A stretch of 37,084 nt of DNA from Spirochaetaceae bacterium (lineage in GTDB: Bacteria > Spirochaetota > Spirochaetia > DSM-27196 > SLAA01): the NCBI GenBank assembly GCA_007695055.1, contig REEM01000092.1, forward strand, positions 1 to 37,084. Direction: 5' to 3'. This document shows positions 13,777 to 34,281 of this stretch, piece after piece. The notes beneath the pieces were generated by a model. That model did not search any database, was not told where the DNA came from, and worked only from the letters and a program-made list of their open reading frames with translations. Both the position numbers and the translations under genes were made by a program. Within the stretch, counting starts at the first letter, position 1; each line of letters opens with the position of its first letter.

Positions 13777-13798
13777 AGACCAAGTTATCCCTTGGTCT
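13777..13798. terminator. Possible bidirectional terminator between convergent genes
   Basis: AGACCAA and TTGGTCT form a 7-bp stem spanning the 9-bp gap between the convergent stops at 13775 and 13785. It lacks a long T-tract. Confidence 0.35.
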
Positions 13799-14834: not shown

Positions 14835-16393
14835 ACTGCCGACTCCTCTCTTTCTTGTATTTCTTTCTCCTGCGCAACAAGCTGCAACAGTTTATCCCGA
14901 TCAATGTCTTCATACTCCTGCTCGCCTATGATCGCACCGTTGTTCATCACGACGATCCGGTCGGCGACCTCAATCAGTTCATCAAGATCGGTGGCAATGA
15001 TGATTGCAGATTTATCGCCAATGCTTGTTCGCAGGTACTCGCCAATATCATGGCGGGAACGGATATCAACTCCCTGAAAGGGTTCATCAAGAATTACAAG
15101 GTTATACTTCTCAAGAAGCCAACGAGCCACCACAACTTTCTGTTGATTCCCGCCGGAAAGACTGTCCATCTCGGCCTCTGGCCCCTCGCACTTAATGCCC
15201 ATGGCGCCAATCATTTCCCGACATCGCTTGATCTCGGAGTTCACATCCATTATTCCAAGGCGATCAAAGACTCGGAGGAAAGGCAAGGTCATGTTCTGAC
15301 GTATGTTGAACAGCGGGACTACCGCGTTCTCAGCGCGATCCTCCGGCACATAAAAAATTCCGGCCCGAATAGCCTCGCTCATGTTTCGAGGGTGGATCAC
15401 CTTGCCTGCCATTCGGATTTCTCCCGACATCGCCTGAGTAATACCAAAGAGCACCTGTGCCAGTTCGGTCTTCCCTGCCCCTATCAGACCGGTGAGTCCA
15501 AGTATCTCGCCCTTTCGCACCTTAAGATTCACAGGCGGGGCGCCCTCAGCAACCACGACATCCCGCAGCTCCACCTGAGTATTCGTGTCGTCTATACCTC
15601 TTTCTCGATCCGCCAAAAAGCTGTGCTTTGGGATTTCTCCAACCATGGCGGTAACCATGTCCTTGACCTGGAATGGCCGTTGGAGAGTCTTTGCCAGCTT
15701 GCCATCTCGGATAACTATAACTCTATCAGCGATTCGTCCGATCTCATGCAGTCGGTGAGAGACGTACAGGATAGAGACACCAAGTTGCTTGAGGCGATCA
15801 AGCATTGCAAAGAGCCGCTCGGATTCTTTATCGGACAAGGAGGAGGTTGGCTCGTCCAAGATAAGCAGGCGTGGCTTAATTGCCAGCGCGCGTGCTATTG
15901 CTATCATCTGACGTTCGGACTGCGGGAGTTGATCCACAGGGGTATCCAGATCAATCTCTAAGCCCATGGTTGCTGCCACCTCCCTGGCTTCAATCCTCAG
16001 CGCCTCTTTTTTGTAGAACAAAGGCAGTCCAGGATTAAGCAACTTTGCCAGGGTCAGGTTCTCGTAAACGGTCATTGAAGGTACCACACCCTCGTTAATG
16101 ATCTGATGTACGGTGGCAATTCCGTTGTCGTAGGCCGCCTTTGGGGTATGGAACTGAACCTCCTTTCCTTCTACCAGAATCTGTCCTTCATACTCGGCGT
16201 GATAGCCGCAAATGATCTTGATCAGGGTCGATTTACCGGCGCCATTTGCGCCGACCATCGCAAGCAACTCGCCGGGCTTGAACTCTACCGAGACACCGTC
16301 AAGAGCCCGTGTTACCCCAAAACTCTTCCCTATATCACGTACTTCAAAGAGAATCTTTGCGTCCGACACATCTTGCTCCTTCACTGCCGTCAT
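14831..16393 (-). CDS. ABC sugar transporter ATP-binding protein, two ABC domains (RbsA type)
   Basis: Two fused ATPase domains energise the ribose-type importer. Domain 1 has Walker [13 protein letters not shown], a divergent signature [15 protein letters not shown] and Walker [13 protein letters not shown]. Domain 2 has a degenerate Walker [13 protein letters not shown], signature [15 protein letters not shown] and Walker [13 protein letters not shown]. This asymmetry is normal for the RbsA/XylG family. Length is 520 aa. It overlaps mtnA upstream and the permease downstream by 4 bp each (ATGA), so mtnA and the transporter are tightly coupled. Confidence 0.92.
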
Positions 16394-17442
16394 TCACCAA
16401 AGATCTTGTGAAGATTCTCTTGATAAGGCGCTCGAATAAGCCCTCTGTCGGTGATGATTCCAGCCACCAGCTCGTGTGGAGTCACGTCAAAGGCGGGGTT
16501 CCGAACCTTAATGCCCTCGGGAGCGGTCCTTCGCTGTCCGAAATGCGTTACCTCATCCTCACCTCGCTCCTCAATAAAGATCTCCTTTCCGGTTGGAGTA
16601 GAGAGGTCTACAGTAGACGCCGGGCAAGCAACATACACCGGAATCTTGAAGTACGCGGCCAGAACCGCCACACCCAGTGTTCCAATTTTGTTAGCGACAT
16701 CGCCGTTAGCGGCAACGCGATCGGTACCAACAATGACCATATCTATCAAGCCTTGTTGCATCACAAAGGCTGCCATGTTGTCCGTGATCGTGGTCACATC
16801 GACCCCGGCGTGCAAGAGTTCCCAGGCGGTAAGCCGTGAACCCTGCAGCAAAGGACGGCTTTCATCTGAGTACACGCGGAAGGAAACGCCACGTTCTTGA
16901 GCAAGGTACATTGGCGCGGTTGCAGTCCCGTACTCGGATGTTGCCAGTCGGCCCGCATTACAGTGAGTCAGAAGACCCATGCCATCCTTAATCAGCTCAA
17001 CCCCGTGTTCACCGATCTTCCTGCACAGCTCGATGTCCTCTGCGTGGATCTCCTCCGCAGTCTTGGTCAGGCACTCGAGGAGCTCGGCGCCGCTCTGGCC
17101 ACCTGAGGTCTCAACACTTTTCACCGTACGTTTGAGTGCCCAACTCAAGTTCACCGCAGTCGGCCGGGAGCTGTCCAGATACGCGGCTTTCTCCTGCAGT
17201 TCCGCGAGAAAAGCCTCGCGATTCAGGTGGCTTTTGTCTTGCATCGCCACCACAAGTCCGTAGGCTCCTGCAACGCCAATCGCCGGAGCTCCGCGAACCT
17301 TCAACTGCTTAATTGAGTCCCAGACCTGCTCAACGCTCATCTGCTCCTCCACCTTCACTGCAATTGGCAGCAGAGTTTGGTCAAGCAGGTAGAGTTTTCC
17401 ATCCTTCCATGTGATGCTTTTCACTTGCTTATGATCTAGCAT
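16390..17442 (-). CDS. mtnA: 5-methylthioribose-1-phosphate isomerase (possible 5-deoxyribose-1-phosphate isomerase)
   Basis: MtnA converts the aldose 1-phosphate to the ketose 5-methylthioribulose-1-phosphate, and can act on the 5-deoxy analogue. The eIF2B-related fold is seen in [16 protein letters not shown], the active-site Cys in [17 protein letters not shown] and the catalytic Asp in [19 protein letters not shown]. Length is 350 aa, as expected. It lies between the ribose-type binding protein and ATPase, and in the same strand run as mtnK and a class II aldolase. None of the usual methionine-salvage genes (mtnB, C, D) is nearby, which favours the DHAP shunt over methionine salvage. Confidence 0.93.
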
Positions 17443-17624: not shown

Positions 17625-18695
17625 TTAGCGAGGCATCCAGGGCGAACGAGCAGCGTTTGAGGTTGCAAACTCCGGAAATGCATCCATGAGTTCTTCCATG
17701 TTCTGAACACCGGCCTCGACCAGCATCTCGGAAGTGAAGATCATTGGTTCAACCAGAATGTCTTGCGGAACGTTCTCGCCGACCATTAACTGAGCAAGAG
17801 CTCGTACTGAGGCGGCCCCCATCTCGGACGGGTTAACTGCCGAGGTCATTACCCACGGACTATTGGGCTGCGTCATGATTTCTATGTCCTGCGTCGAGAT
17901 ATCAATGCTGTAAACCTTCACGTTGTCACGCCCAATCTCTTCAAGAGCAAGTACAATACCCTTAGCAAACTCATCATAGGGAGCAAGGTAGGCCCGAATA
18001 TTGGGGTTGGCTCGCAGCACCGCGGTTGCCTGCGCCGCGTTTTGCGTAGAGATTGGTGAATCAAGGGTACCGGTCTGCGCTACAATTCGCACCCCAGACT
18101 CCCGCGCAACAACTTCCTGAATTGGGCCATCGCGCTTATCAAGCGGAAGAATTCCAGCAACACGGACATAGGCCATATCTACCTGTCCGTTGAAGTCGCT
18201 CACAATGGCTTCAATTGCATTGCGCCCATGTTGGGGGTCGTTCTGCGCGATCTGTGGAATGCGAGGGTTCTCAAGGTCTACGTCAAAGGCAACAACCGGA
18301 ATACCTGCGTCAAGTGCCTCTTGCGCAGGCCCGACCATAGTCTCGGTGAGGCCATGCTGAATAACAATACCGTCGACACCCAGGTTGATAGCCTGGCTCA
18401 CAGCGTTCGCCTGCGACTGCGCATCGGTATGCCGCCCAAGCACGGTAACGCGCATCCCGAGCAGTGCGGCCTGCTGCTCAACACCGGCGCGGTACATCTG
18501 CATGAACTCCCCTTCCTGCAAATAGCTCAGGTGAGCAATATGCAGTTGCCGGCCTGTGCTACCATCGAAAGGTGCCGGTGCACCAGGGATATCGGTCACT
18601 GGCCCTCTGCGGGCTTCAGCGCCGCCCCCAGCAAACAGGGTACCCGCCCCAACGAACATCAAAAGAATAAGAAAGAATCCTACTGAACGTCGCAT
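17625..18695 (-). CDS. Periplasmic sugar-binding protein, ribose (RbsB) type
   Basis: This type I periplasmic binding protein belongs to the ribose-type importer. The signal peptide covers about residues 1-25 (FFLILLMFVGAGTLFAGGG). The mature part shows family text such as QANAVSQAINLGVDGIVIQHG and PVVAFDVDLENPRI. There is no lipobox Cys in the leader. The start is ATG 18695 after GGGAGG; the track's start six bases upstream is a GTG. It has its own strong promoter and a leader with two hairpins. Ligand unknown; the operon points to 5-deoxyribose, methylthioribose or a nucleoside. Confidence 0.87.
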   Translation of the reverse strand: MRRSVGFFLILLMFVGAGTLFAGGGAEARRGPVTDIPGAPAPFDGSTGRQLHIAHLSYLQEGEFMQMYRAGVEQQAALLGMRVTVLGRHTDAQSQANAVSQAINLGVDGIVIQHGLTETMVGPAQEALDAGIPVVAFDVDLENPRIPQIAQNDPQHGRNAIEAIVSDFNGQVDMAYVRVAGILPLDKRDGPIQEVVARESGVRIVAQTGTLDSPISTQNAAQATAVLRANPNIRAYLAPYDEFAKGIVLALEEIGRDNVKVYSIDISTQDIEIMTQPNSPWVMTSAVNPSEMGAASVRALAQLMVGENVPQDILVEPMIFTSEMLVEAGVQNMEELMDAFPEFATSNAARSPWMPR

Positions 18696-18741
18696 CGCCA
18701 CCTCCCTTGTCGAATCACGATCTCAGCCGTGATTCTCGCTT

Positions 18742-18856: not shown

Positions 18857-18866
18857 GTGGTTTTAC
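18857..18866 (+). promoter_or_regulatory. Copy of the GTGGTTTTA motif upstream of the binding-protein promoter
   Basis: GTGGTTTTAC lies about 40 bp upstream of the -35 box and overlaps the end of the preceding gene. It shares GTGGTTTTA with the sites around the mtnK promoter. Confidence 0.35.
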
Positions 18867-20029
18867 CCAGTGGCGGCGAGCTCCTGCTCAACTGCTTCCC
18901 GAGCTGTGATTAAGGCCTCGCTAGCGGTGCATTCACCTCGAAACGCTCTGCTTAACTCGGCGTACAAGGGGGTTATCAAGCTGCCGAGCTTGGGCAAATG
19001 TGGCAGACGCCGTGCTCTTTCCAGCAACTGCTCCTGAGCGGTAAACCACGGACAGCGTTTGCGCAGGGCGGCATCGCGGTAGGTAGATTTCCGAACGGGA
19101 CTGCCAGCATACACCCCTATGTGGCAGTCGACCTCTCGAGAACCGAGATACGCCAGCAGTTCCACAGCATCGTGTTTGTTGGAGGAAGCCGAAAGAACCC
19201 CAAATGACCAGGTAACGTTCCAGGGATACTGCGGGGTTTCGTAAACAAAGTACTCATTGTTCGCGTGCTCTTCGCTAACAATCACCCCGGCTTGCCCTCC
19301 CCAGCTCAGCCCAAATGCGGCCTCACCATTGCGCAAGGCAGCGGCAACTTGCTCGTTTCCATAAGGTGCATGCTTCTTAGAAAGAAAAGCTGTGAGTCGC
19401 AGGTAGTACTCCAGCGCCTCGTGACCTGCGTCCTCGGCAAAGAGCGGTTCGCCGCTCGGCCCAAAACACTCACCACCAAATGAGTACAGGTACGGCAGCC
19501 AATCAAGGAATATCTCACTCGGGGCCACCTTCATGACGACAGGTGCGAGATGTGGGAGCTCAGTTTTGCTCAACCGCTGGGCAAGATCCACATACCGCCG
19601 AGGATCTTGAAGTTCAGCTCTACTCAACAGCTCAGAAGTGGCGCTGTCCGCGTAGACGATATGCCCATCGGTGAAGGACGGCACCAACCAGCTGCTGCCC
19701 TTATACCGCATCTCGGAAGCAATAGCCGGGTGTATATCCTTGGCGTCGAATTCTTCTGTATTGAGCGCCCCATAGTCGTCAAGGGGCTCCAGGTATCCAG
19801 CATTCACAAACTGCGCCAACCATAGGTGCCCGGCAATCATCACAATATCGTAGGCGGGCTTGCGTTCGGCGGCAACCGCAAACAAACGGTCACCGTACTG
19901 TTCCCACGGCAGAACTTCAAACTCCACTGAGATCCCGGACCGCTGCTGAAACGACTCAATAATACCAAGCTGCGGATCGACATAGCCATACACGGCCGGA
20001 TCTCCAACCGCTAGAACCTTAACCGGCAT
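18863..20029 (-). CDS. Family 1 extracellular-solute-binding-like protein with no signal peptide
   Basis: This 388-residue protein has the family 1 binding-protein fold: GIIESFQQRSGISVEFEVLPWEQYGDRL near the N-terminus (motif SGISVEFEVLPWEQYGDRL), YDIVMIAGHLWLAQFVNAGYL, and an aromatic-rich C-terminal lobe (YPWNVTWSFGVLS). The start is ATG 20029 (MPVKVLAVGDPAVYG), supported by GAAGGAG 8 bp upstream. This begins directly in the first beta strand, leaving no leader. The longer track ORF adds 35 residues from the deoR frame that are also not a clear signal peptide. It overlaps the DeoR-family stop by 11 bp. It may be a cytoplasmic ligand-sensing protein, or a binding protein with a lost leader. 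Function not recognised. Confidence 0.75.
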   Translation of the reverse strand: MPVKVLAVGDPAVYGYVDPQLGIIESFQQRSGISVEFEVLPWEQYGDRLFAVAAERKPAYDIVMIAGHLWLAQFVNAGYLEPLDDYGALNTEEFDAKDIHPAIASEMRYKGSSWLVPSFTDGHIVYADSATSELLSRAELQDPRRYVDLAQRLSKTELPHLAPVVMKVAPSEIFLDWLPYLYSFGGECFGPSGEPLFAEDAGHEALEYYLRLTAFLSKKHAPYGNEQVAAALRNGEAAFGLSWGGQAGVIVSEEHANNEYFVYETPQYPWNVTWSFGVLSASSNKHDAVELLAYLGSREVDCHIGVYAGSPVRKSTYRDAALRKRCPWFTAQEQLLERARRLPHLPKLGSLITPLYAELSRAFRGECTASEALITAREAVEQELAATG

Positions 20030-20855
20030 CTTGAATCTCCTTCTCAGCCCTGGACACATCTGCAGCGCCAACGGAACTCGCGTCCCCACACGACTTGCCG
20101 CAACGAAAGCCAAGGTCATGCGCCTCAAGAGCAACTCTCCATTCCTCGGAGAGCTCGCAGTCGGTTATCATGAGATCAAAGTCCGACAGGTCAGCAATGT
20201 GGACAAAGGATGTGACGTCGAACTTTGTAGCGTCGGCCACCAAGATAGAGCTTTCGGCCTGGTGCATCATTTGCTTCCTGACCTCGGCCTCTCTTTCGTT
20301 TGCGTCGGTTACACCATGGGTGCGGTGCACACCGTCACAACAGATGAAGGCCTTGTCGGCAAAGTAGGTTGAAACAGCTTCTTCGGCCGCCTTTCCGACC
20401 GTGGTGAGGGAGCTTGGCCTCAGGGTGCCTCCGGTACAGATCACCTTCACACTACCTGCTGCGGCGAGAGCCTCGGCAACCTTGAGCGCGTTGGTAATAA
20501 CAATAAGGTTCTTTTTCTCGCACAAATGTTCTGCAATATGAATTGCGGTGGTACTTGCATCTAGAAAAACCGTATCGCCGTTGCGCACGCACTCCGCCGC
20601 AAGCGCCCCAATCATGTGTTTAGCCTCGACCTGCACATGACTGCGCAAAGCGACCGGAACTTCGCGGTGCATTCCGGCGTTTATGAATGCTCCCCCGTAG
20701 GTCTTAGACAGTAGGCCGTTACTTTCCATCTTGGTAAGGTCACGCCGAATCGTCTCTTCGCTCACTGCGAAACGCCGAGAGAGATCCGAGACGGTAACGC
20801 TCCCCGACTCCCGCAACAATTCTATAATGCTTTGCCTACGCTCTACCGCTAACAC
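20019..20855 (-). CDS. DeoR-family transcriptional regulator
   Basis: This 278-residue repressor-type protein has an N-terminal DeoR helix-turn-helix (SVTVSDLSRRFAVSEETIRRDL, core FAVSEETIRRDL, then LLSKTYGGA). The C-terminal sugar-phosphate-sensing domain (ISOCOT-like fold) shows NGDTVFLDASTTAIHIA and FICCDGVHRTHGVTD. Such regulators respond to a phosphorylated sugar, here plausibly 5-deoxyribose-1-phosphate, methylthioribose-1-phosphate or the ketose form. It lies directly after mtnK. Likely targets are the GTGGTTTTAT motifs by the mtnK and binding-protein promoters. The effector and sites are inferred. Confidence 0.9.
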   Translation of the reverse strand: MLAVERRQSIIELLRESGSVTVSDLSRRFAVSEETIRRDLTKMESNGLLSKTYGGAFINAGMHREVPVALRSHVQVEAKHMIGALAAECVRNGDTVFLDASTTAIHIAEHLCEKKNLIVITNALKVAEALAAAGSVKVICTGGTLRPSSLTTVGKAAEEAVSTYFADKAFICCDGVHRTHGVTDANEREAEVRKQMMHQAESSILVADATKFDVTSFVHIADLSDFDLMITDCELSEEWRVALEAHDLGFRCGKSCGDASSVGAADVSRAEKEIQDAG

Positions 20856-20910: not shown

Positions 20911-22119
20911 CTATTGCGTCACTGCAAACTTAAGCACTGTCTCTACCGCTTCATCAATGTTTTGATACTCTTCCCTACGCATGATAAACTCGCGCGCGGT
21001 ATCAAGCACCGATATCTGTGCCCGAGCACGAACCTCAGCATCTGGAATGGAACGAATATCCTCCACCTGAGCTAGCCCAACAATTCGGCGTGTCATTTTG
21101 CAACCAGCATAGCCAATCGAGTCAGCGAGCAGGCGTTTCATATAGTCTTCAAGGTACTCGGGATTCATCTCAAGCGGTGTCTTCACGTGCTCATGCCACA
21201 GCGAACGAAACTGCTCCTCAAAAACGTACCAGATCTCCCGGAAACTTCGGAGAAGGTACTCCCGGAAAACTTCACGTTCGTGTTTGTCCTTCTTATGCCA
21301 CAGCTGGGAGGCATGGTTTAGCACTAGATTCCCTATAATCGCGCCGACGTCAAAACCCATTGGGCCAAAGAAGCCAAACTCCGGATCAAAGGCCTTGGTC
21401 GACTCAGCTGTGACAAAAACGCTCCCGGTGTGAAGATCTCCGTGAATAAGGGCCTGCCCCTGCGTCATGAACTTCTCTTTGAGTTTTGCAACCTCTCGCT
21501 TGAGTGCTGCATCTTTCCAGTTCTCCTCTGCCCGCTCTCGAATCTCTGGATCAATCTTGTTGTTGGCCGCGTCAAAATACGGGTTGGAAAACACCAGATC
21601 CTCGGTGATTTTGCAGAGATCAGGATTAACGAAGCTCTTCTGTACCACCTTCTTCTTGAGAGGATCCATCCCAAGGTCGGAGGTGAAGAACAGGGAGCGC
21701 GCGAGAAACTCGCCAATGTGCTCGGCAAGCTTTGGGTATACCGTTCCCGCAATAAGGCCTTTACGAAGCACAATGTGGTCCGAAAGATCCTCCATTATAA
21801 TTGCGTACATCTCGCGGTCATAGCTGAAGATTTTTGGGGCCAGTCCCGGGCAGTTGCGGTCATGCAGCACTAGCATTTCGCTCTCAATGCGCGCACGGTC
21901 AAGCGGAGCCACAATGCTGTCGTCAATACGGGCGTGAGGCAAGGACTGCTTAATTATGACACTCGCGCCTGAGCCCTTGGTTTCGCTAACGCGAAAGACC
22001 ATGTTCAGATTCCCGTCGCCTATTTCTTTACACTCGAGCTGCGAATCGGCCGAGAAAACCTTCGTCTTGGCACGTGCAAACTCCAGTGCCGTCTTCTCAT
22101 TCAGGGTTGCATACTCCAT
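20911..22119 (-). CDS. mtnK: 5-methylthioribose kinase (possible 5-deoxyribose kinase)
   Basis: MtnK phosphorylates C1 of 5-methylthioribose using ATP and is an aminoglycoside-kinase-fold enzyme. The family signature is clear: GDGNLNMVFRVSE, VIIKQSLPHAR, the catalytic loop LIHGDLHTGSVFV and metal ligands in FDPEFGFFGPMGFDVGA. The start is ATG 22119 (MEYATLNEKTALEFA) with AGGAGG 7 bp upstream; the track's 17 extra residues are leader. At 402 aa it is a normal size. It begins a unit with the DeoR gene and transport genes, behind its own promoter. No MTA/5'-deoxyadenosine nucleosidase is seen, so the free sugar may be imported by the linked ABC system. Confidence 0.93.
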   Translation of the reverse strand: MEYATLNEKTALEFARAKTKVFSADSQLECKEIGDGNLNMVFRVSETKGSGASVIIKQSLPHARIDDSIVAPLDRARIESEMLVLHDRNCPGLAPKIFSYDREMYAIIMEDLSDHIVLRKGLIAGTVYPKLAEHIGEFLARSLFFTSDLGMDPLKKKVVQKSFVNPDLCKITEDLVFSNPYFDAANNKIDPEIRERAEENWKDAALKREVAKLKEKFMTQGQALIHGDLHTGSVFVTAESTKAFDPEFGFFGPMGFDVGAIIGNLVLNHASQLWHKKDKHEREVFREYLLRSFREIWYVFEEQFRSLWHEHVKTPLEMNPEYLEDYMKRLLADSIGYAGCKMTRRIVGLAQVEDIRSIPDAEVRARAQISVLDTAREFIMRREEYQNIDEAVETVLKFAVTQ

Positions 22120-22145
22120 ACCAGCACCTCCTGTTGAATCTCTGA

Positions 22146-22162
22146 TCACTACGAAGTAGTGA
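22146..22162 (-). other. Hairpin in the mtnK leader
   Basis: TCACTAC and GTAGTGA form a perfect 7-bp stem with a 3-nt loop, 27 bp before the mtnK ATG. The stem is too short to call as a terminator. Confidence 0.35.
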
Positions 22163-22232
22163 GTGGACACGACCTGCTCATGTTGTTCACGGTTGTACCG
22201 TCATACAAACGCTCAGAACCGCACGGAATCGT

Positions 22233-22352: not shown

Positions 22353-23159
22353 TTATGAGCCCCGTACCCGGCGCACAATCTCAGCCACCAGTGCTTCGAA
22401 TTCGGATGTGCCCGGACTGAAGTCTCTGCTTACCGAGCGTTCGTTATTCATCTCACACTGTGGATTGGCCGCACCGGACGCAGAGCCAGACGGCCTGTAG
22501 CTACAAGCCTGGGCCTGAGTCTTGATTCCGTAGAACTCTCGCAGGCCCTGCAGGCGGTGAATGTCTTCGGAGGAGAACGGTTTGGCACCCCCAAGCGAAT
22601 GAGCGTAGATCAAGATCTCGGCGTTGTGCTCAAGCTTTTCCAGCTTCTTGAAGGCATCGGAGAGGGTCGCGCCCACCGTGACGCTCCCGTGGCGTGCCAA
22701 CATCACCGCATCACTGCGGGCAATGAGATCGCTCATTGAGTTCGGCAGGTCCTCGGTGCTTGGGGTTGCGTACGGTGCCACTGGCACATCGCCTAAGGTG
22801 AGCACCACCTCCGGCAGAATGCAGGTATCTAGACGCACCTCGGCAATGGTAAAGGCAATGGCTTTGGGAGGATGGGCGTGGATCACGGCCTTCACGTCCT
22901 CGCGTCGTTGGTAAGCCTCAAGATGAACCTTATACTCGGTGGAAGGACGCCTTGAATCGCCAATGGGGTTGCCTTGAAAATCAATGACGATGGGTGCCTC
23001 GACCGTCATGTCCTCTTTGCGTAAGCCGGATGGAGTAATGAGAACACGATCCTCGCTAAGCCGAATAGAGAGATTCCCGTCGGTTGCACACACAAGACCT
23101 TGCGCATGAACCTTGTGGCTATAGTAGACAATCTGCTTGCGTGCTTCAATTTCGTTCAT
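22353..23159 (-). CDS. Class II (zinc) aldolase with a C-terminal BMC-targeting-like helix; predicted 5-deoxyribulose/methylthioribulose-1-phosphate aldolase
   Basis: This fuculose-phosphate-aldolase-family protein has zinc ligands HAHP and LARHGSVTVG, substrate motifs TDGNLSIRL and TPSGLRKEDM, and a catalytic Glu in RPSTEYKVHLEAY. The aldolase core ends near residue 212. A polar linker (SYRPSGSASGAANPQ) and a terminal amphipathic helix (FEALVAEIVRRVRGS) follow. That layout is typical of microcompartment cargo, and the helix resembles those of EutC and EutE here. It is the last gene of the BMC operon, 11 bp after a eutN-type gene and about 230 bp before mtnK. With MtnK and MtnA it would cleave the ketose 1-phosphate to DHAP plus acetaldehyde or methylthioacetaldehyde. 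A fuculose/rhamnulose-phosphate aldolase role cannot be excluded from sequence alone. Confidence 0.85.
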   Translation of the reverse strand: MNEIEARKQIVYYSHKVHAQGLVCATDGNLSIRLSEDRVLITPSGLRKEDMTVEAPIVIDFQGNPIGDSRRPSTEYKVHLEAYQRREDVKAVIHAHPPKAIAFTIAEVRLDTCILPEVVLTLGDVPVAPYATPSTEDLPNSMSDLIARSDAVMLARHGSVTVGATLSDAFKKLEKLEHNAEILIYAHSLGGAKPFSSEDIHRLQGLREFYGIKTQAQACSYRPSGSASGAANPQCEMNNERSVSRDFSPGTSEFEALVAEIVRRVRGS

Positions 23160-23170
23160 CTTTCACTCCG

Positions 23171-23470
23171 TCACGTAGCTATGCTGTTGTCATTCATCTT
23201 AGAGTTGAGCTCAACCGAGTCGATAATCCCAATAATCAACTCCTGCAGAGGCGGGTTTTTCACACCTAGTACCGCGGCTGCCGAGTTTCCTTCCTTTAAG
23301 ACAAGCACGTACTCACCAATACCAGCCTGCACGGTGTCCACTGCCAGGAGTTCAACCCCTGTAGGCGTGAGATCCGGCAAACAGACCTCAACAACCATAA
23401 GAGTACGCCCCTCATAGACCGGATGCTTTACGGTTGCGGTTACCGTTGCTCGAACGAGCCCTATCTTCAT
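23171..23470 (-). CDS. BMC-P vertex protein, EutN/CcmL family (divergent)
   Basis: This 99-residue pentameric vertex protein has the EutN/CcmL fold: LVRATVTATVKHPVYEGRTLMVVE, then LLAVDTVQAGIGEYVLVLKEG and IIGIIDSVEL. It is the most divergent of four EutN-type proteins here and lacks the usual GSSAR turn (GNSAA instead). The start overlaps the preceding BMC-P gene by 4 bp. It directly precedes the aldolase, so the two are probably co-translated. Confidence 0.88.
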   Translation of the reverse strand: MKIGLVRATVTATVKHPVYEGRTLMVVEVCLPDLTPTGVELLAVDTVQAGIGEYVLVLKEGNSAAAVLGVKNPPLQELIIGIIDSVELNSKMNDNSIAT

Positions 23471-23805
23471 TGTGCAGCCCCTTCGGGCTGAACCACGCCG
23501 TCGGGCTGTGAGACACGATCGGGCGCAACGCGGTCAGGAATATCTCCATCCAGAAACTCTACAATACCCACAATTGTGGCATCCACCGGCACAAAGTTCC
23601 TGGGCAAGGCCAATGCGGCCTCTCTTCCGTCCACCATGTACACACGCTCGCCAACTCCGGCTTGGGTTCCGTCACAAGCGACAATTGCTTTGCCGGAAGG
23701 AGATCCGTCGGAGAAGATCGGTTGCACCCAGAGCAACTTGACACCCTCAAGGCCTTCATATTTCACAGTTGAAACCAGCGAGCCAATCACTCTTCCAAGA
23801 AACAC
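23467..23805 (-). CDS. BMC-P vertex protein, EutN/CcmL family, with C-terminal tail
   Basis: This EutN/CcmL-type protein of 112 residues has FLGRVIGSLVSTVKYEGLEGVKLL (core GRVIGSLVSTVK), AIVACDGTQAGVGERVYMVDG and ATIVGIVEFL. After the vertex fold comes an unusual 20-residue Pro/Gln/Val-rich tail with repeated DRV/QPxG text. The start is GTG 23805, 9 bp after the previous stop. It overlaps the next BMC-P gene by 4 bp. Confidence 0.88.
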   Translation of the reverse strand: MFLGRVIGSLVSTVKYEGLEGVKLLWVQPIFSDGSPSGKAIVACDGTQAGVGERVYMVDGREAALALPRNFVPVDATIVGIVEFLDGDIPDRVAPDRVSQPDGVVQPEGAAQ

Positions 23806-23814
23806 AGGACTCCC

Positions 23815-24102
23815 CTACTTTCGGAAGACGGTCTCGTCGCCGATGGTGAACGAGTCGACAATTGCCATAATGACGGCATCTACCGGACGTTCCTTGGTTA
23901 TAGTGGTTTGACGAGCAGAGGAGCCCGCTGCGTACAACACAACCTCCCCCTCTCCAGCACCGACGGCGTCAACCGCAACGACGAAATCACCAAGGGGCTT
24001 CATGCGCTCGCTCAAACGCTCAAGGATGAGAAGCTTAGCCCCGGTAAGCGAGGCTTCTTTCTGAGTGGCCACCACGGTTCCAGCAACACGCGCGAGATTC
24101 AT
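23815..24102 (-). CDS. eutN: BMC-P vertex protein, EutN type
   Basis: This canonical EutN-like vertex pentamer subunit has 95 aa: NLARVAGTVVATQKEASLTGAKLL (core GTVVATQKEASLTGAKLL), FVVAVDAVGAGEGEVVLYAAGSSARQT and AIVDSF. It is the first gene of the distal part of the operon, preceded by a 105-bp gap with a strong promoter. It closely resembles the EutN encoded at the far end of the operon (34282-34572). Confidence 0.93.
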   Translation of the reverse strand: MNLARVAGTVVATQKEASLTGAKLLILERLSERMKPLGDFVVAVDAVGAGEGEVVLYAAGSSARQTTITKERPVDAVIMAIVDSFTIGDETVFRK

Positions 24103-24534: not shown

Positions 24535-24560
24535 GGTTTCCTCCCGGCTCTTCACCGACT

Positions 24561-25184
24561 CTACTTGGTGCCGTCGACTGCGTTGATCGCTGTCACTGCC
24601 GCATCACGTGCGGCAAGAATGTCGGCCTCGGTTCCGGCCATCCATAGTCTGCCGAATACGCCAACGCCGGTAATATGCATAAGGTTCACGTCTGCAGCCT
24701 TTTCGGCCTCGTTGGCGGCAAGGTTAATGTAGGCCGCTGGCTCACACTCAAGTACCAACATAGACTGCCCCGGCACCAACATCATTCCTCTGTTAAAGCG
24801 ATTCAGCAACTGAGACTGATAGGGACTCACGTTGGTAATAATCTGCATGGACGCAATTGACGGTTTCTTGCGCGCGGAGATATCGACTCCCAGTTCACGG
24901 AGCACGACATCGCCAGCCTCAATTACGTCCTCCTGCGACATTGAGTGCAGCTCGAACATTCCGTATTGACGTTCTACAATCTGGGCTCCGGGTCGGGCAC
25001 TGGTGGCTTTGACGGCAGCATCTACAACTCGAAAGACCCAGTTACCCGGAGCCATTTCAACATAGAGACTTGCCATACCCTCAATTGGGAGGTCGCCCTG
25101 GGTAATGCTCCCGACAAAGGCGGCGTACTGAGGCTGCATTCTATCCAGATAGCAGTAAGCGCGTAGTTGAAAGTCGTCGGTCAT
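24561..25184 (-). CDS. Tandem-domain microcompartment shell protein (BMC-T type)
   Basis: This 207-residue protein appears to hold two BMC-fold repeats. The first (about 35-105) has GMASLYVEMAPGNWVFRVVDAA and a helix with AGDVVL. The second (about 130-205) has GMMLVPGQSMLVLECEPAAY, then AANEAEKAADVNLMHITGVGVFGRLWMAG and AARDAAVTAIN. This matches a trimer-forming tandem shell protein distinct from EutL. It lies between eutJ and the small EutQ-N-like gene with 11-26 bp gaps. The subfamily assignment is by eye. Confidence 0.75.
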   Translation of the reverse strand: MTDDFQLRAYCYLDRMQPQYAAFVGSITQGDLPIEGMASLYVEMAPGNWVFRVVDAAVKATSARPGAQIVERQYGMFELHSMSQEDVIEAGDVVLRELGVDISARKKPSIASMQIITNVSPYQSQLLNRFNRGMMLVPGQSMLVLECEPAAYINLAANEAEKAADVNLMHITGVGVFGRLWMAGTEADILAARDAAVTAINAVDGTK

Positions 25185-25195
25185 AGTTATCTCCC

Positions 25196-26083
25196 CTATC
25201 TCCCTAGTGCGCCTACACCGGCGCGAACATCATTCATTGCTATTCCTATTGGCGTCACAAAAAGAGGATTTCCCGGCACTATGGTAGGAACCCCAGTAAC
25301 CGCCTCCACTACCTCCGCGATACCGGCAAAACTACTCGTACCGCCGACAAGGTACACACAATCAACTTCAAAGGACTTCAGATGGGCAGCAATAATTGTC
25401 CCCATCTTTTCCATCACTGGCCGCACTACCGGAAGCAACTCACGGTGACGTGCAGGGTCGGTCTTCATGGCCTCAGCCTCTTCAAAGGAAACCTTGTGTG
25501 CACCCGCCAAGACAAGACTCAGGTGCGTTCCTCCAGTCGGCTCATCGCCGGTGTACACCACTTTGCCATTTTGAATAACGGCTATCCCGGTTGTCCCGCC
25601 ACCTATGTCTACAACAGCGGCGTTCTCTACCTGCAAGAGGCTGTCAGCTGCACTTGGCTCGTCTATGAGCACGCTACACTCAAGGCCAGCCGACTCAATC
25701 ACATAGCGAACAGCCTTTACCTCACCTGGTGACACCCCGGGTGGGAAGGAACCGGCTGCGGACTCAAGTTCCACTCCAAGGCGGCGCTCCACGTTGAGCT
25801 TAATCTTCTTGACAAGGTCAACCGCGCCCACAAAGTCCACAACAACCCCGTCACGCACTACCTGCGCAAACCGGTACTCACCGGCGCATGGCATGCCTTC
25901 TTCGTCGACCACTACAACAACGGTGTAGGCGGTTCCAAGGTCAACTCCAACACGGAGAACCCCTGCTGGTTTACCGAGCTGAGTCTCGGCCGCGTCAGGG
26001 GGTTGTGCGCCCCCATTAACTCGGTCGCCACGAACTATGACCCGGTCGGCGGTCTGGAGTATTGCGTCAAGCCGTGCGTTCAT
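25196..26083 (-). CDS. eutJ: EutJ, Hsp70-like ethanolamine-utilisation chaperone
   Basis: EutJ is an actin/Hsp70-fold ATPase of eut operons, thought to help cargo folding or assembly. Motifs include the phosphate-1 loop GVDLGTAYTVVVVVDEEG, phosphate-2 AAVVDIGGGTTGIAVI and an adenosine-binding VYLVGGTSSFAGI. At 295 aa it is slightly longer than E. coli EutJ. The ATG has GGAGG 6 bp upstream and overlaps the EutQ-EutT stop by 4 bp. Confidence 0.92.
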   Translation of the reverse strand: MNARLDAILQTADRVIVRGDRVNGGAQPPDAAETQLGKPAGVLRVGVDLGTAYTVVVVVDEEGMPCAGEYRFAQVVRDGVVVDFVGAVDLVKKIKLNVERRLGVELESAAGSFPPGVSPGEVKAVRYVIESAGLECSVLIDEPSAADSLLQVENAAVVDIGGGTTGIAVIQNGKVVYTGDEPTGGTHLSLVLAGAHKVSFEEAEAMKTDPARHRELLPVVRPVMEKMGTIIAAHLKSFEVDCVYLVGGTSSFAGIAEVVEAVTGVPTIVPGNPLFVTPIGIAMNDVRAGVGALGR

Positions 26084-27339
26084 GAACGGCCTCCACGCTT
26101 GAGATCATCACGCGCCAGTAATAACTCAACCAAATAGACTGCACTGCTCAGCCGATTGAGCCCGGCGACAATCTCGGTGCCAATCTCCGCGTCAAGCGCC
26201 GTCACCTCTACCTCGCGTACTTGCGCACGCAGGTAGTTCAGCTCAAGCAGAAGAGCATGGTCATTCGCGTCCGGGGCAATATGCCCAATTCCCAGCATCT
26301 CTACCGGTTTGTGGGTAGCCTCGCGAAGCTGCGCCTCGTCCATTCCAGCAATCTGCAATGGAGCAGGAACACGGGCATGGTACTCTGCACTCATGAGCTC
26401 GCGGCAGTAGGCCGCCACGGTTGCAATTCTGTCGGCGGTGGCCTGGAAGCCACACACGCTGGCCAGCGCAGCACAACGCAGCGCGACTGCGTTTAAGGTA
26501 TCAAGACGCCCACGCAGGCGAATGCGCGGTGCGTTCTTTGGGGCAAAGGTCTCGGCATCGAGCTGGGTCATGTGTTCGGGCTTGCGGTCGGGAACCTGCC
26601 CACAGGTAATGCAGTGCGGCCGCGGGCCGTCCATCTTTACCGGAAACTCCGCCGCCCGGTCCCAGTTCACCGGTTTCGACGGTGTGGCAGTCGCGGTCGG
26701 TGCGCCCTGGGAGATCTGGGCGCCCTGAGCACTCGGCGCAGCGGGCTCGCCTTCGCCTGAGGAAGCCCAGTTTGCGGGGTAGGTTACGTAAAAGAACTTA
26801 GCCCAGTTGGGAGTCCCAAAGGTAATTGAGGAACCCTTGGGAATGAAGAGCACATCTCCCGGTCGTCCAATAACCGGCCCGTCCTTGGTGCCAATGTGGA
26901 GTTCTCCCTCAAGCACGTACTGTACCTCGTCGTAGTTCAGGGTCCAAGGAAAACTGCCCTGCCGCAGACTAAGAAAGCCTGCCGCAACCGGAGAGTTATC
27001 GTCGGAGGTCACCACATCTACGCCACGTACATCCATTTCCGGTCGGCCAATGTCAAACTCAAAGGGAGGCATGGATAGTCCACGCGTGTCAATGCAACGA
27101 ATCAAGTCCCGTGCAACCAGCCTCCCTGGCGCCTGCGCAGCGCTACCCGGACTCGGTGCGTCCACCGCCGTAGCTGGCGGAGCCGCAGCTACGCGCTCAA
27201 TACGCATACCCAGCTCGCGCGCGGTATCCTGCGCGAGTGGCGTAATGAGATCATCAGGGCGCAGGTGGAGAACACCTACACCCTGGCTAGCGAGTTTGCG
27301 CACCTCAGCTTCGGTGTACAGGTTCTTACTTGGTTGCAT
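26080..27339 (-). CDS. EutQ-EutT fusion: cupin acetate-kinase-like domain plus corrinoid adenosyltransferase
   Basis: Two normally separate eut proteins are joined. Residues 1-190 are EutQ-like: an N-terminal module (LYTEAEVRKLASQG, LITPLAQDTARELG), DLIRCIDTRGLSMPPFEFDIG, and a cupin (about 120-188) with YDEVQYVLEGELHIG and GRPGDVLFIPKGSSI. EutQ has reported acetate kinase activity. Residues 191-225 are a Pro/Ala/Ser/Thr/Gln linker. Residues 226-419 are EutT-like, with HCITCGQVPDRKPEHMTQLD (metal-binding Cys region), IRLRGRLDTLNA and a helical adenosyltransferase body. EutT makes adenosylcobalamin for EutBC. The frame is continuous with no internal stop. The ribosome site is weak; it lies 9 bp after the BMC-H stop. 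Confidence 0.88.
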   Translation of the reverse strand: MQPSKNLYTEAEVRKLASQGVGVLHLRPDDLITPLAQDTARELGMRIERVAAAPPATAVDAPSPGSAAQAPGRLVARDLIRCIDTRGLSMPPFEFDIGRPEMDVRGVDVVTSDDNSPVAAGFLSLRQGSFPWTLNYDEVQYVLEGELHIGTKDGPVIGRPGDVLFIPKGSSITFGTPNWAKFFYVTYPANWASSGEGEPAAPSAQGAQISQGAPTATATPSKPVNWDRAAEFPVKMDGPRPHCITCGQVPDRKPEHMTQLDAETFAPKNAPRIRLRGRLDTLNAVALRCAALASVCGFQATADRIATVAAYCRELMSAEYHARVPAPLQIAGMDEAQLREATHKPVEMLGIGHIAPDANDHALLLELNYLRAQVREVEVTALDAEIGTEIVAGLNRLSSAVYLVELLLARDDLKRGGRS

Positions 27340-27348
27340 ACTACTTCA

Positions 27349-27810
27349 TCACTTCGGGAGTATTGCCTCTACATCACCATGGGGCCGTGGAATAACGTGG
27401 ACACTGACCAGGTCGCCAACGCGTTGTGCTGCGGCAGCACCGGCATCGGTAGCGGCCTTCACCGCACCAACATCACCACGTACCATAACAGTAACGAAGC
27501 CACCACCAATCTGCTCTTTGCCGATCAGTTTCACGTTAGCTGCCTTGACCATTGCGTCTGCAGCTTCAATTGCGCCTACCAGTCCCTTGGTTTCGACCAT
27601 ACCCAATGCAATTAATTGAACATCCGCCATCGTTGTCTCCTTTGCAGTGCCCTGCTTCTTACCGGTAGGCGAAGCGCCGTCCGGGGTTTGTTTCTTTTTG
27701 GACGCGCCGCTTTTGGGCTCGTCACTTGTTGTCGCCTGTGGTTCTTGCGCCCCCTGCGGCGCTCCCTGTGGTTCCTGGGGATCCTGTGGATCTTGTGGTT
27801 CGTCAGCCAT
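27349..27810 (-). CDS. BMC-H shell protein (EutM-like) with a 60-residue acidic/proline-rich N-terminal extension
   Basis: Residues 61-153 are a standard hexameric shell protein: [41 protein letters not shown] and [15 protein letters not shown]. They are almost identical to the BMC-H at 33925-34221. The first 60 residues are a disordered-looking tail: Asp/Pro/Gln repeats ([12 protein letters not shown]) followed by a Lys/Gly/Thr-rich basic part. ATG 27810 has GAGGAGAG upstream, overlapping the eutE stop. ATG 27630, which starts the plain BMC-H domain, has its own AAAGGAG 6 bp upstream, so two products of 153 and 93 aa are likely. The tail could face the lumen or cytosol and recruit partners. 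Confidence 0.92.
27628..27643 (-). promoter_or_regulatory. Internal ribosome binding site and start for the short BMC-H form
   Basis: AAAGGAG, 6 bp spacing and ATG lie inside the extended BMC-H gene, in frame. The site is as strong as the one before the upstream start, so dual initiation is plausible. Confidence 0.65.
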
Positions 27811-27822
27811 GACTTACTCTCC

Positions 27823-29370
27823 TCACGCCTTGAGCTCCTTCAGCACCTCACGAACAATCTGAGCGATATTTTCTGCTGAGTAGCCTGTTCCTGCCCCGTT
27901 CGAGCCAGTCACGTTCGAGGCAGACAGGCTTGAAGCAGACACCGGACCCGCTGTGTTGGACGATTGTGCTACCACACCCTGGGCAAGGCTATAGGCCTCT
28001 GGGGGCGGTGCCCCTGTCTCGTAGGCCAGCCGCTTGATATTGAGCAGATGCTGAACACTAATATTATCACTGACAATAGACCCGCCGATTCCGCCGGGGG
28101 CTAGAGTCATTGAGGGCATGAGTCCAGTCGTAGACCCCACCGCGCCCATAGAAGCCCAGGTATTCACAATAATGCGAAAGGCTGGCTTTTCTATGCCAAA
28201 GGCCAGAATCACTTCCTCGTCGCGGGCATGGATCACCAGTGAGTGCCCGTCACCACCGAACTTTAGCAGCTCAATACAACGCTCACAACCGGCATGCCAG
28301 TCCTTCTCCACGTAGAAGCCTAAGACCGTGGTGAGTTTCTCACGGCTTAAGGGGTAGTCCTTTCCAACACCCTTCAGATCTGCCACCAACACACGAGCCC
28401 AACCTGGAACGCTAATTCCTGCCAGCTCAGCGAGTGCTTGTGGCGTCTTACCTACGCTGCGCGGATTGATGGCCCCAGAGGGATCAAACAAACAGCGCGC
28501 AACGGCCTGCTGCTGATCGGGATCCAGCCAGTAGGCTCCGTTCTTTTTCATTTCAGCCCGGAGCTGCTCGGCTATGGGCGCATCTGCTACCACCGCCTGC
28601 TCGGTTGCACAAATGACCGAACAGTCAAAAGCCTTGCTATTGACGATGTCGGAAGCTGCTTTAGCTACATCTGCGCTCCGGTCTACATAGACCGGCACGT
28701 TGCCCGGCCCCACCCCAATTGCAGGTTTGCCTACGCTGTGTGCAGCACGAACCATGGGAGTTCCACCAGTCGCCAGAATGAGTGACACCGCGTAGTGCCG
28801 CATGAGTTCCTGCGTACCCTCCAGGCTGAGGTTCTCTATGCAACTCACCAGACCCTTGGGCATGCCCGCCTTCTCGCCCGCTTCGGCCATGATGCGCACT
28901 GTTTCCAGGCAGCATTTTCGAGCCGAGGGATGGGGTGCAATGATGGCGGCGTTGCGAGCCTTGACAGCAATGAGCACCTTGTACATTACGGTCGATGTCG
29001 GGTTTGTTGATGGCACCAAACAGGCCACCACACCCACCGGCCAGCCAATTTCAACAATCTTCTTTTCTTCATCGCGGCGAAGCACACCAACCGTGGGTGT
29101 GTCCTTGATTGAGTCCCACACGCCCTGGCTTCCGAGCTTGTTCTTGAGCGCCTTGTGGGCGGGTACCCCGTAACCGGTCTCTTCATGAGCCATTTGTCCA
29201 AGACGCTCGGAGTTCCGGTAGGCGGCTTCGGCCATGGCAGCACAAATACGGTCTACCTGCTCCTGAGATGTATGGAAAAAGGCCCTTTGAGCCTCGCGTG
29301 CCTCAACCGCAAGTCGCCGCGACTCCTGCACCGAAACCAAGTCGCGGTCATACCCGGTGTATTCCTGCAT
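27823..29370 (-). CDS. eutE: Acetaldehyde dehydrogenase (CoA-acylating) with a C-terminal targeting helix
   Basis: EutE oxidises acetaldehyde to acetyl-CoA with NAD+ inside the microcompartment. Family motifs include GVVACLVPSTNPTSTVMYK, ILATGGTPMVRAAHSVGKPAIGVGPGNVP (core ATGGTPMVRAAHS) and the catalytic Cys in FDCSVICATEQAVV. I use ATG 29370 (MQEYTGYDRDL), which has AGGAG 7 bp upstream; the track's 29397 start lacks a site. The N-terminus starts directly in the catalytic domain. The usual BMC-targeting helix is at the C-terminus, after a Ser/Asn/Gly/Ala linker: ENIAQIVREVLKELKA. Length is 515 aa, about 45 more than E. coli EutE because of that tail. I see no alcohol dehydrogenase or phosphotransacetylase gene beside it. 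Confidence 0.94.
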   Translation of the reverse strand: MQEYTGYDRDLVSVQESRRLAVEAREAQRAFFHTSQEQVDRICAAMAEAAYRNSERLGQMAHEETGYGVPAHKALKNKLGSQGVWDSIKDTPTVGVLRRDEEKKIVEIGWPVGVVACLVPSTNPTSTVMYKVLIAVKARNAAIIAPHPSARKCCLETVRIMAEAGEKAGMPKGLVSCIENLSLEGTQELMRHYAVSLILATGGTPMVRAAHSVGKPAIGVGPGNVPVYVDRSADVAKAASDIVNSKAFDCSVICATEQAVVADAPIAEQLRAEMKKNGAYWLDPDQQQAVARCLFDPSGAINPRSVGKTPQALAELAGISVPGWARVLVADLKGVGKDYPLSREKLTTVLGFYVEKDWHAGCERCIELLKFGGDGHSLVIHARDEEVILAFGIEKPAFRIIVNTWASMGAVGSTTGLMPSMTLAPGGIGGSIVSDNISVQHLLNIKRLAYETGAPPPEAYSLAQGVVAQSSNTAGPVSASSLSASNVTGSNGAGTGYSAENIAQIVREVLKELKA

Positions 29371-29412
29371 GTCTCTCTCCTTCGCTTGTGTACCCATGGG
29401 AGCTCAGACCGC

Positions 29413-30069
29413 TTAGTACTTAAGCGGGTTCGAAGCAACCTCAAGCACGGCGTCGGCGAAGGCCTGGCAGGCCGCCTTGCATGCGCTCTGACTACCAGAA
29501 AGCAAAGCGCCGCCAAAGTTGGTTTCTGACGGGGGTTTGAACCATACACGCATTGTCACTTCAGCCGCCTTGAGTGCCGCATCTATTCCGTAGGTAGCCT
29601 CAATAGGCTGCGAAATGAGGTATGAGAGTGATGTACCTTCAGGCACACCGGCCATGTTGCTCAGGAATGCTCCCGAACGGGAAACGGTGTGCGCAAAGTA
29701 CGCCGAGCCGTCATCATCCGAGGCGGAGTAGAACCAGGCTTCGCCCTCACAGTACTGTATAGCTGCATTGAGCCCGGATCGAACCTCGGCAGGATCGGGG
29801 CCAGCGAGAATGCCAATTACCTCGCCGGAGAGTTTGCCGGACGCATGCCCGGAACCGGCGTAGAAGCTCTGCCCGTACACCACCTGCACCTCGGCCATCT
29901 TTGTGGCTTCGTCCATGGCTACGTAGAGCGGGTCGTCCATGTTGCAGGTAATGAGTGCAATGCTGCGCTGGTTGGGCTTGAGTTCAAGCTCCTTGGCATA
30001 GTCCGGATGCACATTCGGAATAATACGTGCCGAGAGAATTGTCGGCTTTAATGGATCATGAATTGCCAT
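29413..30069 (-). CDS. eutL: EutL, tandem-domain trimeric shell protein
   Basis: EutL forms pseudo-hexameric trimers with a gated pore. Over 218 residues, the text LSARIIPNVHPDYAKELELK, ALITCNMDDPLYVAMDEATKMAEVQVVY (core ITCNMDDPLYVAMDEATK), SFYAGSGHASGKLSGEVIGILAG and GAFLSNMAGVPEG matches the family along its length. It lies 14 bp after eutC with a GAAGGAG site. The length equals the typical EutL. Confidence 0.94.
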   Translation of the reverse strand: MAIHDPLKPTILSARIIPNVHPDYAKELELKPNQRSIALITCNMDDPLYVAMDEATKMAEVQVVYGQSFYAGSGHASGKLSGEVIGILAGPDPAEVRSGLNAAIQYCEGEAWFYSASDDDGSAYFAHTVSRSGAFLSNMAGVPEGTSLSYLISQPIEATYGIDAALKAAEVTMRVWFKPPSETNFGGALLSGSQSACKAACQAFADAVLEVASNPLKY

Positions 30070-30083
30070 TGTTCCACTCCTTC

Positions 30084-31025
30084 TTACGCGTTCTCGCCTG
30101 AGATTTTCAGGCGGAGCTGGACGCCACTGGCCTGATACTTCAGATACTTCTTCACCTGCTCAACAATGAATGCACCGGCCTCAAGCGGGTTGGTACCTCC
30201 ATTGCGGGTAATCATACAAAAGGCATCGCGGTCGCCGTCGGTTTTACCCTTTGTCGGCTTATAGCCCATGTAGGCGCTCATTGCATCGGCAACACCCAGT
30301 CCCGGGCGTTCGCCAATGAGCATGACTACAACATCGGCCCCGACTATATCGTTCACCGAGTTCATAATTCCCACCCGCGCATACTTCACAAAGAAGGGCG
30401 TGCCGCTACTAATGCCCGCAGATTTCAGACCCTGCTCAATGACCGGGAGAATCTCGTCCACATTGTTGCGAATAGCGGCGGCACTCAGTCCGTCACCAAC
30501 CACAATTTGAACCTGAGGATTCTTGGTGCATTTTTCAGCGACAAGCTTTGCACCCTCATCCGAGAGGAGCCGCCCAAGGTCAGGGCGAATAAGAAACTCC
30601 TGCTTGTCCGAGACACGGCTTTGTACCGTAAACAGCCCAGCCTTTTCTACGACCTCGGGTTCCACCTCACTGTGTATTGCGTCCTGCGTCACACCGTGGT
30701 CGGCCTGAAACAGAAGAAGCGAACTTGTGGTGGGGCGTGAGCCCGCGCGGCCAACCGCAATACGTGCTCCGGTCGAGGCCTTGAGATTTCGCAGCCCGTC
30801 CATATCCATGGGATTCTTCACCCCTACCTGTGCACGAGCTTCCTTGGTGGTGGGGTCTGGAAGATCCAGCACCAATCCGCCAACGGCCGCGCCGCTGGGC
30901 GCAGTCGCTGAGCTGGCCCCGGATGCACCGTTTGAACCCGATCCGGCTGCAGCGGAGGCTCCACTGCCCAGTTCCTTGAGGACCGCTTGTACGATTGCCT
31001 CAATCTGGTCTTTAGTGTTGTCCAT
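30084..31025 (-). CDS. eutC: Ethanolamine ammonia-lyase, small subunit
   Basis: EutC is the light subunit of the adenosylcobalamin-dependent lyase that converts ethanolamine to acetaldehyde and ammonia. The core shows ARIAVGRAGSRPTTSSLLLFQADHG (core VGRAGSRPTTSSLLLFQADH), VQIVVGDGLSAAAI, VMLIGERPGLGVADAMSAY and DAFCMITRNGGTNPLEAG. The N-terminus carries a BMC-targeting helix (QIEAIVQAVLKEL) and a long Gly/Ser/Ala linker. I prefer ATG 31025, because AAGGAGG abuts the ATG at 31031 but is 6 bp from this one. It lies 11 bp after eutB. Confidence 0.95.
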   Translation of the reverse strand: MDNTKDQIEAIVQAVLKELGSGASAAAGSGSNGASGASSATAPSGAAVGGLVLDLPDPTTKEARAQVGVKNPMDMDGLRNLKASTGARIAVGRAGSRPTTSSLLLFQADHGVTQDAIHSEVEPEVVEKAGLFTVQSRVSDKQEFLIRPDLGRLLSDEGAKLVAEKCTKNPQVQIVVGDGLSAAAIRNNVDEILPVIEQGLKSAGISSGTPFFVKYARVGIMNSVNDIVGADVVVMLIGERPGLGVADAMSAYMGYKPTKGKTDGDRDAFCMITRNGGTNPLEAGAFIVEQVKKYLKYQASGVQLRLKISGENA

Positions 31026-31036
31026 ATCCATCCTCC

Positions 31037-32404: not shown

Positions 32405-32461
32405 AAGCTCAACTCCTTAGCCGCCCCATTTTGGGACATGTCCCGCAACGTTCACAGGGCG

Positions 32462-33913: not shown

Positions 33914-33924
33914 GTATCACTCGG

Positions 33925-34221
33925 TCAGGCTTTTCCGCCGCCGGTGCTCGGAAGGATCTGCTCAACATCGCCGTGGGGCCGTGGAATCACATGCACGCTG
34001 ACCAACTCACCAACACGCTGTGCTGCCGCCGCACCGGCATCTGTAGCTGCCTTTACCGCACCAACATCGCCCCTGACCATAACGGTAACCAAACCGCCGC
34101 CAATGTACTCCTTGCCAATCAGCTGCACATTTGCAGCCTTAACCATAGCATCTGCCGCCTCAATAGCTCCGACAAGGCCCTTGGTCTCAATCATTCCGAG
34201 TGCGGTTAACTGCATTGCCAT
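33925..34221 (-). CDS. eutM: BMC-H shell protein, EutM type
   Basis: This 98-residue protein is the main hexameric shell tile: [23 protein letters not shown] (core [17 protein letters not shown]), [22 protein letters not shown] and [15 protein letters not shown]. It is nearly identical to the BMC-H domain at 27349-27630, implying a recent duplication. The pore-loop Gly-rich segment (IGGG) is conserved. GGAGGGAG precedes the ATG. Confidence 0.95.
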
Positions 34222-34281
34222 AACTCCCTCCGATAGTGTGTGTCGTTTCTTGGCGCCATTCCGACGCCTCTCCGTGTGTTC

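Follow-up and report, generated by a model that had tools for sequence, protein, structure and literature searches.

The window analysed here, a stretch of 37,084 nucleotides from a Spirochaetaceae bacterium, encodes a class II aldolase whose C-terminal tail is, to judge from its sequence and from those of its relatives, very probably an encapsulation peptide. Within the clade of this aldolase the tail is strictly linked to neighbouring shell genes of bacterial microcompartments (BMCs), and the aldolase sits in a syntenic module together with a kinase and an isomerase. The tail probably draws the enzyme into the lumen of the microcompartment, where the aldolase would end a 5-deoxyribose/methylthioribose route and share its acetaldehyde with EutE.

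A helical tail beyond the aldolase core

The Aldolase_II domain (PF00596) covers residues 9-183 of the protein (4e-46), and the metal and catalytic residues of the class II fold, one Glu and three His, are conserved (E75, H94, H96 and H157). The best phmmer match in the PDB is 6btd (90.7 bits, compared with 84.9 bits for 4c24), the structure of the 5-deoxyribulose-1-phosphate aldolase DrdA from Bacillus thuringiensis; Foldseek places 4c24 first, and the fold matches 6btd/6btg and FucA alike. Alignments to the closest solved relatives stop at around residue 211, and the roughly 56 residues that lie beyond the core comprise a polar linker that leads to a terminal helix, EFEALVAEIVRRVRGS (residues 214-268 and the stop codon correspond to 22353-22520). 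Such a linker and helix had been proposed in an initial annotation of this DNA, and AlphaFold2, run on an alignment of 35 sequences, predicts both: the core is modelled with confidence, residues 228-250 are disordered (pLDDT <50), and residues 252-267 form a separate C-terminal helix (pLDDT 82-89). Packing of the tail on the core would have counted against the annotation. The model shows the helix as separate but, as it comes without inter-domain error, stops short of strictly excluding that the helix docks there. The length of the linker, which varies from 24 to 85 residues across the seven tailed aldolases of the clade, argues against a fixed docking site.

BMC encapsulation peptides are amphipathic helices of 15-20 residues that sit at one end of a protein and are attached through a flexible linker of low conservation, a description that the predicted helix and linker fit. 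The likeness of the C-terminus to such peptides was scored with a profile of 15 columns, for which the only training data were the N-terminal encapsulation peptides that aldehyde dehydrogenases of other loci carry, against a background of 1,300 C-termini taken from the fetched loci. The aldolase scores 14.0 and ranks 19th; the C-termini ahead of it come from 15 other aldolases, from two EutE proteins and from a single unrelated protein. Of the roughly 1,200 unrelated C-termini, only that one thus scores higher. The peptides at the N-terminus of EutC and the C-terminus of EutE, with which the initial annotation had compared the tail, are both present as it quoted them, and score 30.7 and 26.2, respectively. 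The apolar face of the aldolase helix reads LV..IV..V, and its hydrophobic moment is 0.52, a value that is reached by 15% of shuffles; the moment was rejected as a test because it cannot tell the tail apart from shuffled versions of the same sequence. The C-terminus of an unrelated methyl-accepting chemotaxis-like protein in the window (6161-7483, minus strand) scores 13.0, a chance likeness to the aldolase tail. It is important to point out that, with an ordinary moment and an unrelated C-terminus scoring so close, the helix sequence alone does not constitute proof.

Features of the aldolase and of the locus that surrounds it (positions in the window)
Feature	Position	Strand	Basis or remark
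Class II aldolase ORF, 268 residues	22353-23159	-	window protein
Aldolase core, DrdA/FucA-like	22524..23159	-	PF00596; best PDB sequence match 6btd
Probable encapsulation-peptide helix EFEALVAEIVRRVRGS, residues 253-268	22356..22403	-	profile score, AF2 helix, conserved LVxEI..RV
Polar, predicted disordered linker, about residues 213-252	22404..22523	-	low pLDDT; poor conservation
Three BMC-P (EutN-type) pentamer genes, directly upstream of the aldolase	23171..24102	-	PF03319 for 23171-23470
MtnK-type sugar kinase, no encapsulation peptide	20911..22170	-	TIGR01767, 496 bits, cutoff 275
DeoR-family regulator, conserved in the module	20019..20855	-	
Extracellular solute-binding protein	18863..20134	-	PF01547; conserved in L023, L040
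Sugar (RbsB-like) binding protein	17625..18701	-	76-87% identical in L023, L025, L040, L130, L131
MtnA-type 1-phosphate isomerase, no encapsulation peptide	16390..17442	-	TIGR00512, 444 bits, cutoff 279
Sugar (ribose-type) ABC transporter ATPase and permease of the module	13785..16393	-	
EutE-type CoA-acylating acetaldehyde dehydrogenase, C-terminal encapsulation peptide ENIAQIVREVLKELKA	27823..29397	-	TIGR02518, 587 bits, cutoff 620
EutC (N-terminal encapsulation peptide MDMDNTKDQIEAIVQAVLKELG) and EutB	30084..32404	-	
Remaining EUT shell/accessory genes	24561..34572	-	BMC-T (CcmP/HO-type), EutJ, EutQ-EutT fusion, EutM x2, EutL, EutA, EutN

Tails and shell genes among relatives

The clade of the window aldolase comprises 13 Spirochaetota sequences (support 100/100), seven of which lie beside shell genes (the window, L023, L025, L040, L130, L131 and L133) and six of which do not (L024, L026, L041, L043, L042 and L044). 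All seven members of the former group carry the tail, compared with none of the latter; the Fisher P of 6e-4 is descriptive and overstates independence, since the 13 sequences are related. The tails of the BMC-linked enzymes are 41-102 residues long and end in LVxEI(V/T)xRV; across the seven proteins, identity is 73% in the core, 25% in the linker and 55% in the helix, with six invariant positions in the latter. L024, L026, L041 and L043 end 10-13 residues past the core, and in L042 and L044 the aldolase runs directly into MtnA. The encapsulation-like character that the initial annotation had ascribed to the tail is upheld by profile rank and neighbourhood together, and its expectation that close homologues outside BMC loci lack such a tail was confirmed in all six.

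One member of the second group is L041, whose tailless aldolase is 76% identical to that of the window, groups with the tailed L130 (support 100/84) and is nested in the tailed clade. No BMC-domain gene (PF00936) was detected in its genome, a MAG of about 80% completeness, and in this lineage the tail and the shell genes were probably lost together. Tagged and untagged orthologues at this level of identity make a natural pair for studying the effect of a C-terminal encapsulation peptide on the same enzyme. Both kinds occur together in one genome, G334, whose tailed aldolase adjoins three BMC-P genes and whose tailless aldolase lies on a short contig that carries no shell genes. In G293 a EUT BMC is present and the aldolase is untagged, so that the tag is linked to a shell-gene neighbourhood and not simply to the possession of a compartment.

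The helix could instead serve as an oligomerisation or metabolon contact, for instance to MtnA or MtnK, rather than as a tag for shell or core, but we consider this highly improbable. Aldolase-MtnA fusions occur in two relatives without nearby shell genes (L042:1777-3525 and L044:3000-4745) and are an alternative way of coupling isomerase and aldolase; they imply that association with MtnA is selectable, and encapsulation peptides, too, self-associate (PMC12339742). Against such a contact, L024, L026, L041 and L043 have neither shell genes nor a tail despite a nearby MtnA, and the tail matches a profile of BMC cargo. We retain the encapsulation peptide as the preferred reading of the tail.

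Across all of the roughly 100 aldolases sampled, a tail that passes the profile is found in 53 of 57 aldolases beside shell genes and in 19 of 45 others. Many of these 19 have BMC genes elsewhere or lie on short contigs; among the 11 whose genomes were searched, eight belong to genomes with BMC-domain genes at another place and three to genomes in which no BMC-domain gene was detected. For the tagged aldolases L027, L049 and L080 no shell gene was detected in their MAGs, and in more distant clades L053, L057, L077 and L084 are untagged despite a BMC locus.

The locus and its putative route to acetaldehyde

The aldolase start lies 11 bases past the stop of a BMC-P gene, and a BMC-P triplet in the same order occupies the upstream side of the aldolase in L023, L025, L130, L131 and L133. 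A single locus in the window holds EutA, EutB, EutC, EutE and EutL together with shell genes, the combination by which a EUT BMC is recognised. The gene at 24561 had been considered as a PduL phosphotransacylase, a candidate that was rejected: it encodes a CcmP/HO-type BMC-T shell protein (24561-25184, minus strand) that sits within the EUT locus, and PF06130 (PduL) was absent on a search of the window's genome. CcmP-type BMC-T proteins within EUT loci have been reported for EUT3 only; the EutE of the window comes nearest to the TIGR02518 type. Several further features were noted in the block, all on the minus strand. The 115-residue protein at 24208-24555 begins like EutQ-N, contains the helix AELAEIVTRVVVTHL (profile score 7.1) and is possibly a small scaffold or cargo; in both G334 and G293 a homologue closes the EUT locus. 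A EutQ cupin and a EutT-like adenosyltransferase share a single ORF (26080-27339), for which the matches in G334 fall at two different places and may represent separate genes. The EutM at 27349-27810 has a polar N-terminal extension of about 60 residues, which is unusual in a hexamer shell protein, and a second EutB, 58% identical to that of the window, is encoded elsewhere in the same genome (G000:C26:4560-5924).

Radical SAM enzymes generate a toxic by-product that gives rise to 5-deoxyribose, and free acetaldehyde is released in the known route for disposal of this sugar. More broadly, both 5-deoxyribose and 5-methylthioribose arise as by-products of reactions that involve radical SAM and AdoCbl, and ethanolamine ammonia-lyase sheds 5'-deoxyadenosine. 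The aldolase of the window clusters with an MtnK-like kinase, an MtnA-like isomerase and a sugar ABC transporter; its membership of a kinase-isomerase-aldolase module of the 5-deoxyribose type was missing from the initial annotation. A kinase, an MtnA-like isomerase and a class II aldolase convert 5-deoxyribose to dihydroxyacetone phosphate (DHAP) and acetaldehyde (PMC6079011), and the E. coli kinase-isomerase-aldolase set also converts methylthioribose (PMC10986504). By sequence, the window set resembles this 5-deoxyribose/methylthioribose 'DHAP shunt', merged with a EUT BMC locus. The window's own genome encodes an MTA/SAH nucleosidase that scores over the cutoff. Methionine salvage via MtnB was rejected, as the sole match in the genome is the aldolase itself, below the cutoff, and neither a glycyl radical diol dehydratase nor a lactaldehyde reductase is among the named genes between 13.8 and 34.6 kb.

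In the mechanism that we propose, the pentose would be imported by the transporter or freed inside the cell by a nucleosidase, then phosphorylated by MtnK and isomerised by MtnA. Both enzymes are placed in the cytosol because neither has a tag; they were rejected as tagged cargo, with termini that score at most 4.3 in the window proteins and at most 0.1 in their relatives. The resulting 1-phosphoketose would cross the shell of the microcompartment encoded alongside. The C-terminal peptide and its flexible linker would have drawn the aldolase, whose solved relatives are tetrameric, into the lumen, with the helix recruiting it to the cargo core or the inner shell as known peptides do (PMC12339742). 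There the aldolase would cleave the phosphoketose to DHAP, which leaves, and acetaldehyde, and EutE would turn acetaldehyde from this source and from ethanolamine (via EutBC) into acetyl-CoA.

Two other substrates merit consideration. The tail may be an encapsulation peptide and the substrate a 1-phosphate of the fucose/rhamnose type, with lactaldehyde as product, as has been proposed for PVM and GRM5 compartments, whose class II aldolases are assigned to fuculose and rhamnulose phosphate (PMC4207490, PMC8217296); similar tails are indeed found on many BMC-locus aldolases of the wider family. This assignment is improbable for the window, however: homologues of MtnK and MtnA are encoded in the operon, neither a fucose kinase nor a fucose isomerase was identified, DrdA rather than FucA gives the best sequence match in the PDB, and the dehydrogenase that partners the aldolase belongs to the acetaldehyde (EutE) type. 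Alternatively, the compartment could mainly serve sulphur salvage, by converting methylthioribose to methylthioacetaldehyde, rather than the breakdown of 5-deoxyribose. Either sugar can serve as a substrate for MtnK and DrdK (PMC6079011, PMC10986504), but partners such as an acetaldehyde dehydrogenase and EutBC favour acetaldehyde, which makes a principal role in sulphur salvage rather unlikely.

The module is found both with and without ethanolamine genes. Four genomes carry dedicated loci (L025, L130, L131 and L133, from the genomes G305, G402, G423 and G429) in which a tagged aldolase and MtnA accompany shell genes and an acylating aldehyde dehydrogenase; three of the four loci also include MtnK, and EutB was not found in these genomes. 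The N-terminal peptide of the aldehyde dehydrogenase resembles the aldolase tail in L131 and L133 (in L133, LDQLVDKVVERLAEE compared with IDELVDEIVARVKQR of the aldolase). A pair of CoA-transferase subunits lies beside the dedicated locus of L131 (16506-18049), where it perhaps replaces a phosphotransacylase. In the window the aldolase module adjoins a EUT block that stands alone in G334 and G293. In G334 the EUT locus, which contains every PF00936 match, is on one contig, and the BMC-P triplet with the tagged aldolase module is on another, apart from the hexamer genes. In the distant lineage of G361 a tagged aldolase occurs with MtnK and MtnA, and eutA and eutB are on another contig.

These architectures raise the prospect, which we regard as evenly poised, of an uncatalogued BMC type for 5-deoxyribose and 5-methylthioribose in Spirochaetota, a DRD metabolosome, that in the window organism is merged with the ethanolamine compartment and fed by two sources of acetaldehyde. 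If so, the merged organelle could recycle the 5'-deoxyadenosine of ethanolamine ammonia-lyase. Enclosing a tagged aldolase in a metabolosome would keep its acetaldehyde contained and tie the salvage of 5-deoxy sugars to the use of ethanolamine.

Comparison with known microcompartments and pathways

A search for literature that links a microcompartment to 5-deoxyribose, methylthioribose or an MtnK-MtnA-aldolase route returned none, subscription journals and supplements aside, and a methylthioribose kinase beside a pdu cluster was judged unrelated to BMC function (PMC7593272). The DrdK-DrdI-DrdA enzymes are likewise a kinase-isomerase-aldolase trio accompanied by sugar transporters, and DrdA is the best solved sequence match, but the known enzymes have no described tag or compartment (PMC6079011, PMC10986504). 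GRM5 and PVM compartments encapsulate a class II aldolase that yields DHAP and an aldehyde (PMC6325248, PMC4207490); they differ in their lactaldehyde route and, in GRM5, a glycyl radical enzyme, whereas the window has a 5-deoxyribose-type kinase and isomerase together with EutE. For the SPU BMC, acetaldehyde has been proposed to arise from the cleavage of a deoxypentose phosphate, and some of these loci have EUT satellite modules; SPU loci, however, use a DeoC-type pfam01791 aldolase and RpiB, with 2-deoxyribose-5-phosphate yielding glyceraldehyde-3-phosphate (PMC8217296). The window shares the EutA/B/C/E/J/L/M/N/Q/T set with EUT2 and EUT3, and a CcmP-kind BMC-T with EUT3, and adds to these a second, putatively aldolase-based source of acetaldehyde.

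The closest precedent is the ACI type of Acidobacteria (Sutter 2021), for which a C-terminal encapsulation peptide on a class II aldolase (pfam00596) has already been reported and which, like the window, combines the tagged aldolase with a BMC-P gene triplet; MtnK, MtnA and EUT genes are undescribed there, and no substrate is assigned to the ACI aldolase (PMC8217296). Since tagged class II aldolases are known from this type, the window system is a variant on a known theme. What the present analysis suggests as new is the tie between an MtnK-MtnA-aldolase route and a microcompartment.
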